Shown piece after piece: positions 1 through 4,943 of a DNA stretch of 64,000 nt (positions are counted from its first letter, which is position 1; every line of letters begins with the position of its first letter). This stretch comes from Terriglobia bacterium. Lineage in GTDB: Bacteria > Acidobacteriota > Thermoanaerobaculia > Thermoanaerobaculales > Thermoanaerobaculaceae. Where the stretch lies: contig JAIQFQ010000009.1 in NCBI GenBank assembly GCA_020073245.1, forward strand, positions 39,703 through 103,702. Reading direction: 5' to 3'. A program made the position numbers and the translations under genes. Under the pieces are notes generated by a model. That model saw only the letters and a program-made list of their open reading frames with translations. It was not told where the DNA came from and made no database searches.

Positions 1-377
1 CCGGCCACGTGCACGTGGGCGACTATGTGACGGTGGGCGCGCTGACCGCGATCCACCAGTTCTGCAACGTGGGGGAGCACGCGTTCATCGGCGGGGGCAC
101 CATCGCGACCAAGGACATCCTGCCGTTCATGAAGACAGTCGGCAGCCGCCCGGCCCGCTGCTTCGGACCGAACACGGTGGGCCTCGAGCGCCGGGGGTTC
201 TCCGAGGATCGCATCCGGGCCCTCAAGGCGGCGTGGCGATTCCTCCACAGCGCCAAGCTCACCACAACCGAGGCCCTCGCACGAATCGCCGCGGAACTCG
301 GCGACGCGCCCGACGCGATGCGACTCCTCGAGTTCATCAAGGCCAGCGAGCGCGGCGTCATCTTGGCGAACGGGTAG
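1..377 (+). CDS. lpxA: Acyl-ACP--UDP-N-acetylglucosamine O-acyltransferase, C-terminal part (5' truncated by window)
   Basis: Hexapeptide-repeat sequence ...VGALTAIHQFCNVGEHAFIGGGTIATKDILPF...GLERRGFS... typical of the LpxA C-terminus; reading frame open to window start. Confidence 0.9.
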   Translation, partial: GHVHVGDYVTVGALTAIHQFCNVGEHAFIGGGTIATKDILPFMKTVGSRPARCFGPNTVGLERRGFSEDRIRALKAAWRFLHSAKLTTTEALARIAAELGDAPDAMRLLEFIKASERGVILANG

Positions 378-499: not shown

Positions 500-937
500 T
501 CAGGCAGGCGGTCGGGGTCCGGATGCCGCGTCCCGTGGGCGTGGCGGCAGGAGCTTGGCGACGATCACGCCGTAGCAAGTGAACTCGGCCAGACCCCCGA
601 GGAACCACTGGAGCGCCACCGAGGCCGGGATTGGGAACAACACGTACTGATTGAGATCCACGAGCACTCCGGCCACCAACGCGAAGTAGAGACCGTACCG
701 AACCCCCTCTTTCACGGAGCCATCTCGCGCGAAACGGGTGTAGCCCCATGCGAACAGGATGACGATGCAGGCCGTGACGACGAGGGACAGCCAGAGCTTG
801 TCGGAGAGATCCGGCCGCCGCAGGTGCTGGACCGAGACATTGGCCGCGCGGAGCACGACGAGATGGACGAACCCGTTCCAGGCGAGCGCCAGAACGAACA
901 GAAGAGCCGAGGTGAGCAAGAAGCGCCTGGTCCGCAT
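500..937 (-). CDS. Hypothetical multi-pass membrane protein
   Basis: MRTRRFLLTSALLFVLALAWNGFVHLVV...; several hydrophobic helices; start chosen inside ORF 500..1000. Confidence 0.6.
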   Translation of the reverse strand: MRTRRFLLTSALLFVLALAWNGFVHLVVLRAANVSVQHLRRPDLSDKLWLSLVVTACIVILFAWGYTRFARDGSVKEGVRYGLYFALVAGVLVDLNQYVLFPIPASVALQWFLGGLAEFTCYGVIVAKLLPPRPRDAASGPRPPA

Positions 938-942
938 GTCGT

Positions 943-1449
943 TCACCGTCCCGTCCTGCCGCTCGGTCCCAGCGACCGCGCGGGTAACCCGAAGAGACAC
1001 CGGAAATCATGGATCACGAACAGAGGATAGACCACCGAACCGGCCAAGCCGGCCAGCACCGCTCGCTGCAAACGGCTGTTGGGCGCTCGACCGCTCAAGC
1101 TCTGCCCATAGCTCACCTGGAAGTTCGGCGAGATCTCGAGTATCAGCTTCGCCGGCAACCCACAGTCTTGGCAAGGCTGGATGTAGACGCCCGTGCCGAC
1201 CTCTACCGCAACCGACAGGCCACCCTTCCGCGCCACCCACAGCTTGAAGGAAACGCTCGCTCCGGGCGCGAGCGGCCCTGTGCTCACACGCCTTCCCGGC
1301 AAGCTCACCTCCACGTTCTTGATCGCCACGCCCGCCGAGTTGCGGACCTGCAGAGTGCAAGGCTGGTGGGTCCGCCTCCAACCACCGCTCACCATCGCCA
1401 GAAGCGCCAACGCCGCGATGGCAAACCAGGTCACCTTCCGTCGTCTCAT
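943..1449 (-). CDS. Hypothetical protein with N-terminal hydrophobic segment; probable cassette gene reading into a degenerate attC
   Basis: MRRRKVTWFAIAALALLAMVSGG...; C-terminal ...RAPNSRLQRAVLAG is translated from an attC-like half-site. Confidence 0.6.
   Translation of the reverse strand: MRRRKVTWFAIAALALLAMVSGGWRRTHQPCTLQVRNSAGVAIKNVEVSLPGRRVSTGPLAPGASVSFKLWVARKGGLSVAVEVGTGVYIQPCQDCGLPAKLILEISPNFQVSYGQSLSGRAPNSRLQRAVLAGLAGSVVYPLFVIHDFRCLFGLPARSLGPSGRTGR
1064..1084 (-). other. attC half-site (degenerate or truncated end of cassette array)
   Basis: cgctgcaaacggctGTTGGGC resembles the L/R half of attC2 and attC3 (ggctgcaacggcctGTTAGGC); no partner half found. Confidence 0.5.
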
Positions 1450-1468
1450 CAGGAGGCCCCAACGGTCC

Positions 1469-1596
1469 GTCTAACGCTGCGCTTCAGCGGCACGCCGGCT
1501 AACCGGTTGGAATTCAGCATGGCAGGATGATGAACTGAGGCACCGGCGCCGCACAAGCACACCGGCCGGCGTGCCTGCTGCAAGCGCTGGTTAGGT
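1469..1596 (-). other. attC recombination site 1 (integron cassette)
   Basis: GTCTAAC gctgcgcttcagcggcacgccgg ... ccggcgtgcctgctgcaagcgctg GTTAGGT: complementary arms with unpaired bases flanked by core sites. Confidence 0.85.
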
Positions 1597-1603
1597 GCGC
1601 AGG

Positions 1604-2140
1604 TCACAGACCCACTAGCTCCAGCGGGTACCGCAGGCCGCACTGAGGACAACGGCGTGCGAACGGCGAAAACGCGTGGCCCTCTTGGCAACGCTTGACG
1701 ATGCCGCGCTGGATGATGACGAGCGAGGTCTGGTACACGCACGCCGGAACAAGGAAGAAAAGCGCCAAAAAGAGAGCCCCAAGGACACCCCGTTCGAGAG
1801 CTATCGACAACCAACCGGGCCAGTGAATGAACTTGTCGTCGACGAGCAGGATGAGTAGAAGGGTCCCATAAAGGCCGTATGCGGTCCGCAGGCCTGCCGG
1901 GACGCCAAACAGCATGAGTTGCTGTTGCCGGGAGAAGCTGTACCGCGTTCCAGAGCCGATCGCGTTGATGAGGAAACACGCCCAAGGAAAGAGGAGGATC
2001 AAGGGGACCAGAAACAGGAGGAAGCCAAACCCCTTGCTCTCTGGAACCGGGGGAACCAGCGGTGACGTTAGGCCAAGGACCACAAAGAGGACGCCCACTG
2101 CAAGCGACGCAGCACGAAAAACGCGAAGGAGCAGTCTCAA
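1604..2140 (-). CDS. Cassette gene: membrane protein with C-terminal zinc-ribbon-like CPxCG
   Basis: MRLLLRVFRAASLAVGVLFVVLGL...; C-term CQEGHAFSPFARRCPQCGLRY; bounded by attC sites. Confidence 0.7.
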   Translation of the reverse strand: MRLLLRVFRAASLAVGVLFVVLGLTSPLVPPVPESKGFGFLLFLVPLILLFPWACFLINAIGSGTRYSFSRQQQLMLFGVPAGLRTAYGLYGTLLLILLVDDKFIHWPGWLSIALERGVLGALFLALFFLVPACVYQTSLVIIQRGIVKRCQEGHAFSPFARRCPQCGLRYPLELVGL

Positions 2141-2159
2141 CGTAGGCTTTCCTCAGCGC

Positions 2160-2257
2160 ACCTAACGCCGCCGTTCAGCCGCCCGCTGGCTGGCGCGACG
2201 CGTGCCCTTGCACGCGGCGTGACAGCCGAGTGGGGCGGCTGCAACGGCCTGTTAGGC
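2160..2257 (-). other. attC recombination site 2 (integron cassette)
   Basis: ACCTAAC gccgccgttcagccgcc ... ggcggctgcaacggcct GTTAGGC; imperfect palindrome with core sites. Confidence 0.9.
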
Positions 2258-2279
2258 GCCACGCACTGTCGGCGAAAAC

Positions 2280-2768
2280 TCATGGGCCTGGGAAACAAGA
2301 AAGTCCGAGCGACCGTGCGGCGGCTCTTGCCTTGGTGATCTCGGAATATGTGCGTTTGATTTGGGTATCAAGCCACGGCAGGGTCAGTTGTTCGGCGACG
2401 GTGACCTTGACGACGCCGGCCTTCGGCTTGGAGAACTTCACGAGCGAAAACGGGCCGGTTGGGTGTGACGCCAGTACCCTGCCGTGTGCGATCGCGTCAC
2501 GAAGATGCGCCAAAGACGGGTCGATCCGTTCCGGCTTCGCGTGAGCTTCAAGCAGTTCGTTGACCTTCCGAATCACATCGCCGAAGGAGTCGTAGTTGGT
2601 GATCGGGTTCTCCGGAACGGTCTCACCAACCGACAGCTTCTCAAGGTCAAGAGAAAGCGTCTTCGGGCCGACCAAATCGTGGAGCAGAAGCCTTAGGACG
2701 AACTCCAACGACTGCAGATTCGTGACGAGCCGGCCTAGGGCGAGGGGTTCGGGGTCGTCTGTCGTCAT
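2280..2768 (-). CDS. Cassette gene: HEPN-like protein (RxxxxH motif)
   Basis: 162 aa, helical-looking; LRDAIAHGR contains R-x4-H; bounded by attC2 and attC3. Confidence 0.7.
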   Translation of the reverse strand: MTTDDPEPLALGRLVTNLQSLEFVLRLLLHDLVGPKTLSLDLEKLSVGETVPENPITNYDSFGDVIRKVNELLEAHAKPERIDPSLAHLRDAIAHGRVLASHPTGPFSLVKFSKPKAGVVKVTVAEQLTLPWLDTQIKRTYSEITKARAAARSLGLSCFPGP

Positions 2769-2805
2769 GCGTTGGACTCTCCGTGGGCGCAGTCGTGCTG
2801 GTGGC

Positions 2806-2900
2806 GCCTAACGCCGCCGTTCAGCCGCTGGCGCGAGCCTGCCCGGCGCGCAGCGCCGGCTTGCAGGCGAGTGCCAGGCGGCTGCAACGGCATGTTAGGC
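2806..2900 (-). other. attC recombination site 3 (integron cassette)
   Basis: GCCTAAC gccgccgttcagccgctgg ... caggcggctgcaacggcat GTTAGGC. Confidence 0.9.
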
Positions 2901-2910
2901 ACCAAGCGGC

Positions 2911-3552
2911 CTACTCCACATTACGTCTCCCTCTCCCACCGGATTTCGCCATGACTTCTGCCAGCGAACTCGATATAAGCTCACCCTTGACTTGCAGCTG
3001 CCCGCTGTCCGGGTGGCTACCGGGAGGAGCGGCTTCCGCACGAGGCGACCTGTACTGCAGGTCGTAGATGACGACTTCGCCGGTGCTGCTTCGCCATTCC
3101 GCCATCCACTGGTGAACCATGCTCGGCGGCTGGTGCAGCGGGTCATAGAATTCGAACCAGCCCGCCGTGTGGGACGACGGCTCATTGGGGTTGAGCCAAG
3201 CGTGGGCGACAGGCTGCCAGCCGCGCATCTCGAGCCTCATCCGGAGAAGCCCGAGTGCGTTTCGCGCCGGGTACGGTTCTGCGAGCTTGTATCGGACCCA
3301 AATTAGGCCGTCAGGAACACTGGAGGCGTCAGCATCAAGCGCCCCAGAAAGAGGCCGCAGCTCATTCGGGAGTGAAAGCAGCGTCACTGGCACATAGCCT
3401 GTCGACCTTCGACAGGCGGCGAACGCTGCGACCAGGATGAGGGCCGCTAACAGAGATCTTGAAACCTGGTGCCTAACGCGGATTAGATGGACTAATGGGA
3501 ACGGGCAAACCGAGATTCGGAGGCTCGGTTTGCTGGTTGGCAATAGAGTCAT
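2911..3552 (-). CDS. Cassette gene: putative lipoprotein (start uncertain; only ATG lies upstream of the cassette boundary)
   Basis: ...SLLAALILVAAFAACRRSTGYVPVTLLS... lipobox-like AFAAC; boundary core GCCTAAC at 3471-3477. Confidence 0.6.
   Translation of the reverse strand: MTLLPTSKPSLRISVCPFPLVHLIRVRHQVSRSLLAALILVAAFAACRRSTGYVPVTLLSLPNELRPLSGALDADASSVPDGLIWVRYKLAEPYPARNALGLLRMRLEMRGWQPVAHAWLNPNEPSSHTAGWFEFYDPLHQPPSMVHQWMAEWRSSTGEVVIYDLQYRSPRAEAAPPGSHPDSGQLQVKGELISSSLAEVMAKSGGRGRRNVE
3505..3533. other. Short stem-loop at upstream edge of cassette array
   Basis: gcaaaccgag / ctcggtttgc perfect 10-bp stem. Confidence 0.5.
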
Positions 3553-4000
3553 GAAGACCTCCGAAGTCGTTCCAGGATATCACCCTGTGCACCGTTGGGC
3601 TTATTGGAGGGTACCGGGAAAGCGGGGACTAAGAGTTCCGCCTAATCCGTCCACAGCCCGGCCGCACTGATCGTCACTCGGCGTTCGACTCTGGTTCACC
3701 GGATGGGGCCTGGCTGGCCGCCGAGGTCGTGGGTGGGGGGTATTCAAACCCGCCCCTGGGGTGCGGCGGCCATAGGTCCGGCGACCGCGGGTCACCGCAC
3801 GCGCGAGCCGGGACGGGGTGCCGGTGCCGCCGCTTCATGCGGACGCCGAGGGGCCCCGTCCCGGATCGCGCTCCTGCGGTCGCGGTCGCCGGACTCTCGG
3901 GCCGCGGCGAGCAGGGGCGAGCACGGCCCGAGCGGCGCCGCACCCAAGGGGCAAGAAAGCAGGCCTCCACGCAGTGGAACCACAAGTCAACTGCACCGCC

Positions 4001-4091: not shown

Positions 4092-4943
4092 CTACATCCT
4101 CCCGACCATCGCTTCGAGGCGGGCGATGCGCTTCTCCATCGGGGGATGAGTGCTGAACAGCTGCATCAAACCTCTGCCGGAGAACGGGTTCGCGATCATC
4201 ATGTGAGCGGTCGTGGGCTGCGCGGTGGCCATCGGGACGCGCTCGGTGTAGGCGCCCAGCTTGCGCAACGCGGAGATGAGGCCCGTCGGTGAGCCTGTGA
4301 GCTTGGAGCCACCCTCGTCGGCCGCGAACTCCCGTGAGCGTGAGATGGCGAGCTGGATGACCATCGCGGCGATCGGCGCCACGATGATGAAGAAGAGTCC
4401 GCCGAACCCGCCGCCGCGGTCCTCGCGGTCGCCGCGACCGGCGAACATCATGGCGTAGCCGGCCATGCGGGCCAGCATCGCGAGCGCACCCGCGATCGTC
4501 GCGGCCACCGACGAGATCAGGATGTCGCGGTGCAGCACATGGGTCAGCTCGTGGGCGAGCACGCCCTTCAGCTCGTCACGGTCCATCACGCGCAGCAACC
4601 CCTCGGTAACCGCCACCGCGGCGTGCTGGGGGTTCCTCCCGGTCGCGAAGGCGTTGGGTTGCGCCTCGGGGATCACGTACAGCCTCGGCATCGGAATGCC
4701 GGCGCGCTGTGAGAGCTCGGCAACCACTGCAAAGAGCTGCGGGGCAGAAGCTTCCTCGACGGGTTGCGCTCGGTGCATGGCCAGCGCGATCTTGTCCGAG
4801 AAGAAGTACGCGGCGAGGTTCATGAGGCCTGCGAAAGCCAGCGCCATCAGGAGCCCCTGCTGTCCCCCGAGGAGGTCACCAAGCCATAAGAGGAGGCCGG
4901 TGAGCAGGGCCAGGAGAAGCGTCGTCTTCAGCCAGTTCGACAT
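4092..4943 (-). CDS. htpX: Zinc metalloprotease HtpX
   Basis: MSNWLKTTLLLALLTGLLLWLGDLLGGQQGLLMA...; HELTH zinc motif (HELTHVLHRD); internal ATG preferred over ORF start. Confidence 0.9.
   Translation of the reverse strand: MSNWLKTTLLLALLTGLLLWLGDLLGGQQGLLMALAFAGLMNLAAYFFSDKIALAMHRAQPVEEASAPQLFAVVAELSQRAGIPMPRLYVIPEAQPNAFATGRNPQHAAVAVTEGLLRVMDRDELKGVLAHELTHVLHRDILISSVAATIAGALAMLARMAGYAMMFAGRGDREDRGGGFGGLFFIIVAPIAAMVIQLAISRSREFAADEGGSKLTGSPTGLISALRKLGAYTERVPMATAQPTTAHMMIANPFSGRGLMQLFSTHPPMEKRIARLEAMVGRM

Follow-up and report, generated by a model that had tools for sequence, protein, structure and literature searches.

Sequence of a soil Acidobacterium relative suggests that one recombinase services many scattered attI-headed gene-capture platforms at a distance

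The genome of a soil Acidobacterium relative suggests that one recombinase may service many scattered, attI-headed gene-capture platforms at a distance. Within a 64-kb stretch of this genome (contig C45, positions 39703-103702; hereafter the window) we find four integron cassettes headed by an attI site, which has about 190 bp in common with the attI adjoining the genome's only integron integrase gene (intI), on another contig. We put at roughly 60% the probability that the window array is one capture platform of a multi-locus integron, with one integrase (IntI) acting in trans. The genome under study is a MAG of 4.38 Mb in 89 contigs, with 3.5% contamination, and all of the genomes compared (given below as G numbers, with their contigs as C numbers) are fragmented MAGs.

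A first-pass annotation of the window had placed three attC sites on the minus strand, and all three hold up under an independent covariance model, shuffling and folding. The model (R2) draws on 17 attC sites, all of them outside the window, at other loci or in related genomes; it replaced, for the sake of an independent test, an earlier model (R1) that had drawn in part on the window's own sites and was more poorly aligned. It accepts the attC of cassette 1 (2806-2900, E=3.8e-12), that of cassette 2 (2160-2257, E=1.6e-26) and that of cassette 3 (1469-1596, a long-loop type of 128 nt, E=2.4e-24), and its best match outside the array in the 64 kb has E=0.49. In folding, each of these sites surpasses its shuffles by 4.3 to 6.9 sd, and the pattern CCTAAC-N60-90-GTTAGG occurs twice in the window against zero times in 100 shuffles. 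The complementary arms that had also been claimed are borne out in the R2 model set, where R''/L'' and L'/R' covary, with 20 cells changed on both sides versus 9.7±2.1 after shuffling; a slide of the partner arm by one column abolishes the pairing. The arm changes are compensatory. What had been read as a partial cassette ending in a half-site at 1064-1084 actually belongs to a fourth attC (958-1084, minus strand, E=2.4e-11), of which it forms the R'' end; this attC has a decayed R' end and closes the array. The array thus holds four cassettes, not three and a part. The reading of these sites as a dispersed REP unrelated to attC was rejected: the attC stand in arrays with cassettes, and the palindrome that is genuinely dispersed in this genome is a different sequence. 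An Rfam scan of the 64-kb window gave zero matches.

All four cassette genes lie on the minus strand. The first, which forms one ORF with the attI leader (2911-3552, from the ORF call; 213 aa with the leader included), encodes a lipoprotein-like product; the second (2280-2768) encodes 162 aa without a Pfam or NCBIfam match; the third (1604-2140) a membrane protein of 178 aa with a C-terminal CxxC pair and no family over the cut-off; and the fourth (943-1449) 168 aa, its ORF extending into the decayed attC. Pfam and NCBIfam assigned no function to any of the four, and a search of 23 other arrays returned no homologues of these genes, matching only attC and the attI leader. On the left the array has a conserved neighbour, an htpX-like M48 protease gene (4092-4943, minus strand, PF01435) that is syntenic in related genomes, and on the right, also conserved, the 3' end of lpxA (3-377, plus strand, PF13720). 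Upstream of the attI lies the dispersed, imperfect palindromic repeat of about 250 bp (3731-3979; 24 matches in the genome). The same repeat stands upstream of a second attI copy (C33:76.4k), where it is likewise contiguous with the attI, and upstream of the C63 array; the window and C33:76.4k have repeat and attI in common over 510 bp at 82% identity. Between the array end and lpxA there is a further membrane-protein ORF (500-1000, minus strand), not found at that place in G001, which is possibly an old cassette without attC.

The attI module at the head of the array (3471-3658, minus strand), recognised by its match to the intI-linked attI, belongs to what we call type A: CTGTGGACGG together with a core-like box, running through to the crossover core GTTAGGC. 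This core (3471-3477) had been noted as a boundary of the array. As a core it is real, on sequence and on alignment to the intI-linked attI; it is not a mere boundary, being the crossover end of the attI module where attI and cassette 1 meet. The 112 bp from 3471 to 3582 match the intI-linked attI at 91% identity. The upstream core-like box (ATTAGGC, 3640-3646, minus strand) lies 174 nt upstream of the end of the attI GTTAG, a distance that stays within 170-174 nt across the three attI types that we distinguish; the mean score of the box is 6.0 of 7 versus a background of 3.15 (sd 0.42). We know of no described counterpart of this box.

The module also appears to carry start signals. A putative -10 element of a cassette promoter (TGATAT, 3577-3582, minus strand) is proposed from several attI copies that have TATAAT, CATAAT or TGATAT at the corresponding place. 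A Shine-Dalgarno sequence, GGAGG (3558-3562, minus strand), which is exact in 8 of 11 type A copies, precedes a leader ORF of 27 codons from ATG to core, whose frame crosses the crossover point and is open with the same ATG in all 11. Single-base codon differences are synonymous in 34% of cases in the leader frame versus 13% and 16% in the other frames. These patterns are suggestive of translation, but part of the conservation may be due to attI function, which also constrains bases. The leader of most copies ends 2 to 16 codons into the cassette; in the window it is instead fused to cassette 1, which lacks an ATG, GTG or TTG at its own lipoprotein-like start. The attI1 of class 1 integrons likewise carries a Shine-Dalgarno sequence and a short ORF, ORF-11, which reaches across the crossover point into cassette 1 (PMC8876359); the leader here is arranged like ORF-11 and may work alike. 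It differs in its unrelated sequence, in having 27 codons to the core rather than 11, and in its presence at loci without intI.

The single intact intI lies on C33 (103866-104813) and scores 472 bits against the integron integrase profile (TIGR02249, cut-off 265 bits); alignment shows the catalytic residues and the IntI-specific insert to be intact. The earlier statement that no tyrosine recombinase is visible in the window holds for the window's whole contig, where neither PF00589 nor TIGR02249 has a match; the label of an array without an integrase is right only locally. Downstream of intI, in the same direction, follow an attI and about 17 attC up to the contig end. Another contig (G000:C14:20190-32292, L071-L072) carries some 12-15 attC on the minus strand, likewise up to its end, and is probably the continuation of the intI array broken off at the end of C33. 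The order is inverted, with intI directed at attI, so that promoter and attI lie outside intI and could be copied without the gene. Transcription of intI towards attI is also described for the inverted integrons of Treponema (PMC3607928), which differ in that one attI per integron is described there.

Seven attI sites occur in the genome for one intact intI, and six of them, including that of the window, have no intI nearby. A search with the window attI found three further type A copies (C52:78.8k, C33:76.4k and C19:0.2k); a type B attI (TTCGGCAGCCGAATATGCGTTAG), in which the inverted repeat is preserved and the bases differ, is present at C63:381k and C78:6.4k. Among 61 related genomes the type A pattern is confined to this genus, and the type B pattern to this genus and G010, of the same family; reversed patterns, run as controls, gave 0 for either type. 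Every named record in which the type A pattern turned up is an Acidobacteria MAG (palsa_272, fen_297, 37-71-11). In G010 the type B attI lies directly downstream of that genome's own intI, a position that also counters reading type B as a long attC, which was rejected on the lack of arm complementarity by eye. A third subtype (TTAGTACGTCTAATTGGCGTTAG) was seen without intI at L127 (G004:C312) and with intI at L104 (G006:C99). The core-like box of the window (3640-3646) has its equal, GTTAGGC, at all attI loci (for example L092 2865-2871, and L128), so that every attI type keeps a second core-like box some 166 bp upstream of the crossover site, and in type B this box forms an inverted repeat, GTTAGGCnGC...GCnGCCTAAC, equivalent to an inside-out attC. 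Across nine related Acidobacteriota MAGs we count 21 attI, five with intI in cis and 16 orphan; attC follow 14 of the 16 orphans, and one attC is cut by a contig end.

Two of the orphan loci keep their positions across species. An orphan attI between htpX and lpxA is common to four species, namely this one, G003 (C201, type A), G008 (C140, type A) and G001 (C87, type B, with lpxA on the far side); in G005 the same junction is empty, the two genes standing about 100 bp apart. A second orphan locus is common to three species (C52, G003 C99 and G007 C88). Orthologous orphan loci yielded no homologous cassette genes, the matches being to attC and, where sequenced, the far chromosomal flank; G003 C99 and C201 and G008 C140 end 0.5-1.2 kb past attI, so that there the comparison extends no further than the first or second cassette. 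At the second locus the flanks of G003 and G007 are 91-96% identical in protein and the first cassettes have no similarity. As far as can be read from sequence, such turnover of cassettes at loci without intI in cis is the pattern expected of an active platform. No cassettes common to two arrays of one genome were seen, a point against a multi-locus integron.

The main rival to action in trans is loss of intI at each site: an intI of one of two or three types would once have stood at every orphan locus and been lost by deletion, leaving relics or only occasionally mobilised arrays. We regard this as unlikely, at about one chance in four in our estimation, and as strongest for type B, since a type B attI stands beside a different intI in G010 and such an intI was not detected here. 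In the literature CALINs are often taken to be degraded integrons (PMC9024848; PMC8618304), and there is decay at C52, at C19 and in the last attC of the window (958-1084). Neither G007 nor G008 has a detected intI despite orphan attI, which favours loss and counts against a multi-platform integron. Yet none of the 16 orphan sites has an intI remnant, the sequence upstream at C19 being only a few dozen bases; what the orphan copies have in common is the module, with nothing of intI. Moreover, because the cassettes at orthologous orphan sites turned over, some integrase would have acted there, either after a loss or in trans. An array that lost its integrase is no longer the simplest reading of the window, because the genome has an intact IntI, the array begins with an attI module nearly identical to that of this IntI, and the attI-headed layout is repeated at five further loci of the genome as well as in related species.

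An ordinary CALIN could instead arise if IntI, acting in trans, inserted cassettes off-target at a random place in the genome, a known origin of CALINs (PMC8618304); this is improbable here, as the insertion point carries an attI module of 190 bp that aligns with the attI in cis, not a random site. Least probable of all is misjoining of one integron's pieces into several contigs by assembly or binning. In its favour, attC repeats break assemblies and the MAG has 3.5% contamination; against it, the window array lies 40 kb inside its contig between unique flanks, and independent MAGs repeat the htpX-lpxA placement.

Returning to a multi-locus integron served in trans, the mechanism that we infer, comprising action in trans, a promoter, leader translation and spread of the module, would run as follows. 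Modules of about 190 bp (core-like box, putative promoter, RBS, ATG leader and GTTAGGC, then cassettes) would sit at fixed chromosomal positions without intI, and the single IntI of the sedentary integron elsewhere in the genome would insert and excise their cassettes. The attC would fold as single-stranded DNA and exchange at G|TT of any attI copy, and the module itself would transcribe the first cassette and start its translation, in the window by way of the leader fused in frame to cassette 1. The modules might be copied by duplication together with the palindromic repeat, or by IntI acting at the upstream core-like box. We consider it slightly better than an even chance that as many as seven dispersed, self-expressing attI modules at conserved loci are served in trans by one IntI, and that these modules may be mobile, possibly by IntI at the second core-like box. 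Against this, a second intI may have gone unseen because all of the genomes are fragmented MAGs, and the resident IntI may not use the type B sites (C63, C78), which resemble the attI of a different integrase (that of G010, 59% identical).

The term CALIN covers attC clusters that lack an integrase in their vicinity. By that definition the first-pass label of a CALIN-like array without integrase stands, as the covariance model finds four attC where two suffice and there is no intI nearby; what it missed is the intact IntI of the genome and the attI at the head of the array. Of the marks of a complete integron, the array has an attI site and lacks an intI in cis. With CALINs it has in common two or more attC with cassettes, and it differs from them in a full attI module with putative start signals, in several such arrays per genome, in conserved position and in cassette turnover. 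It is thus a CALIN by definition and yet a new form, headed by attI, fixed in position and with turnover. The sedentary chromosomal integron likewise has attI, an attC array and mostly single-gene cassettes without assigned function, but here intI is not in cis and there is one intI per seven attI; standard descriptions have a single attI near the integrase (PMC3607928; PMC9024848; PMC9668308). Cassettes of the delta-attI type also hold an attI away from its usual place, usable by IntI1 (PMC12901181), though inside the arrays of mobile integrons rather than at chromosomal platforms. The open-access PMC literature yielded no prior report of multiple, orphan or duplicated attI, or of dispersed attI-headed arrays.

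The usual picture is one attI beside one intI, with CALINs as debris; here arrays keep their places while their cassettes change. If IntI does act in trans, a genome would offer cassettes several first positions, and each of these would have a promoter of its own to drive expression. Some CALINs elsewhere may then be live platforms, overlooked since searches for attI stop at class 1, beyond which IntegronFinder does not detect attI sites (PMC9024848). The origins discussed for CALINs are insertion in trans, intI loss and rearrangement (PMC8618304; PMC9668308), and the loci described here form natural test pairs, with different attI types or cassettes at the same locus, for how CALINs arise. 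As a minor observation, the main array includes a BrnT-like toxin gene as a cassette (L014:10838-11182), and this stretch has matches of 66-86% identity in arrays of G001, G006 and G007.
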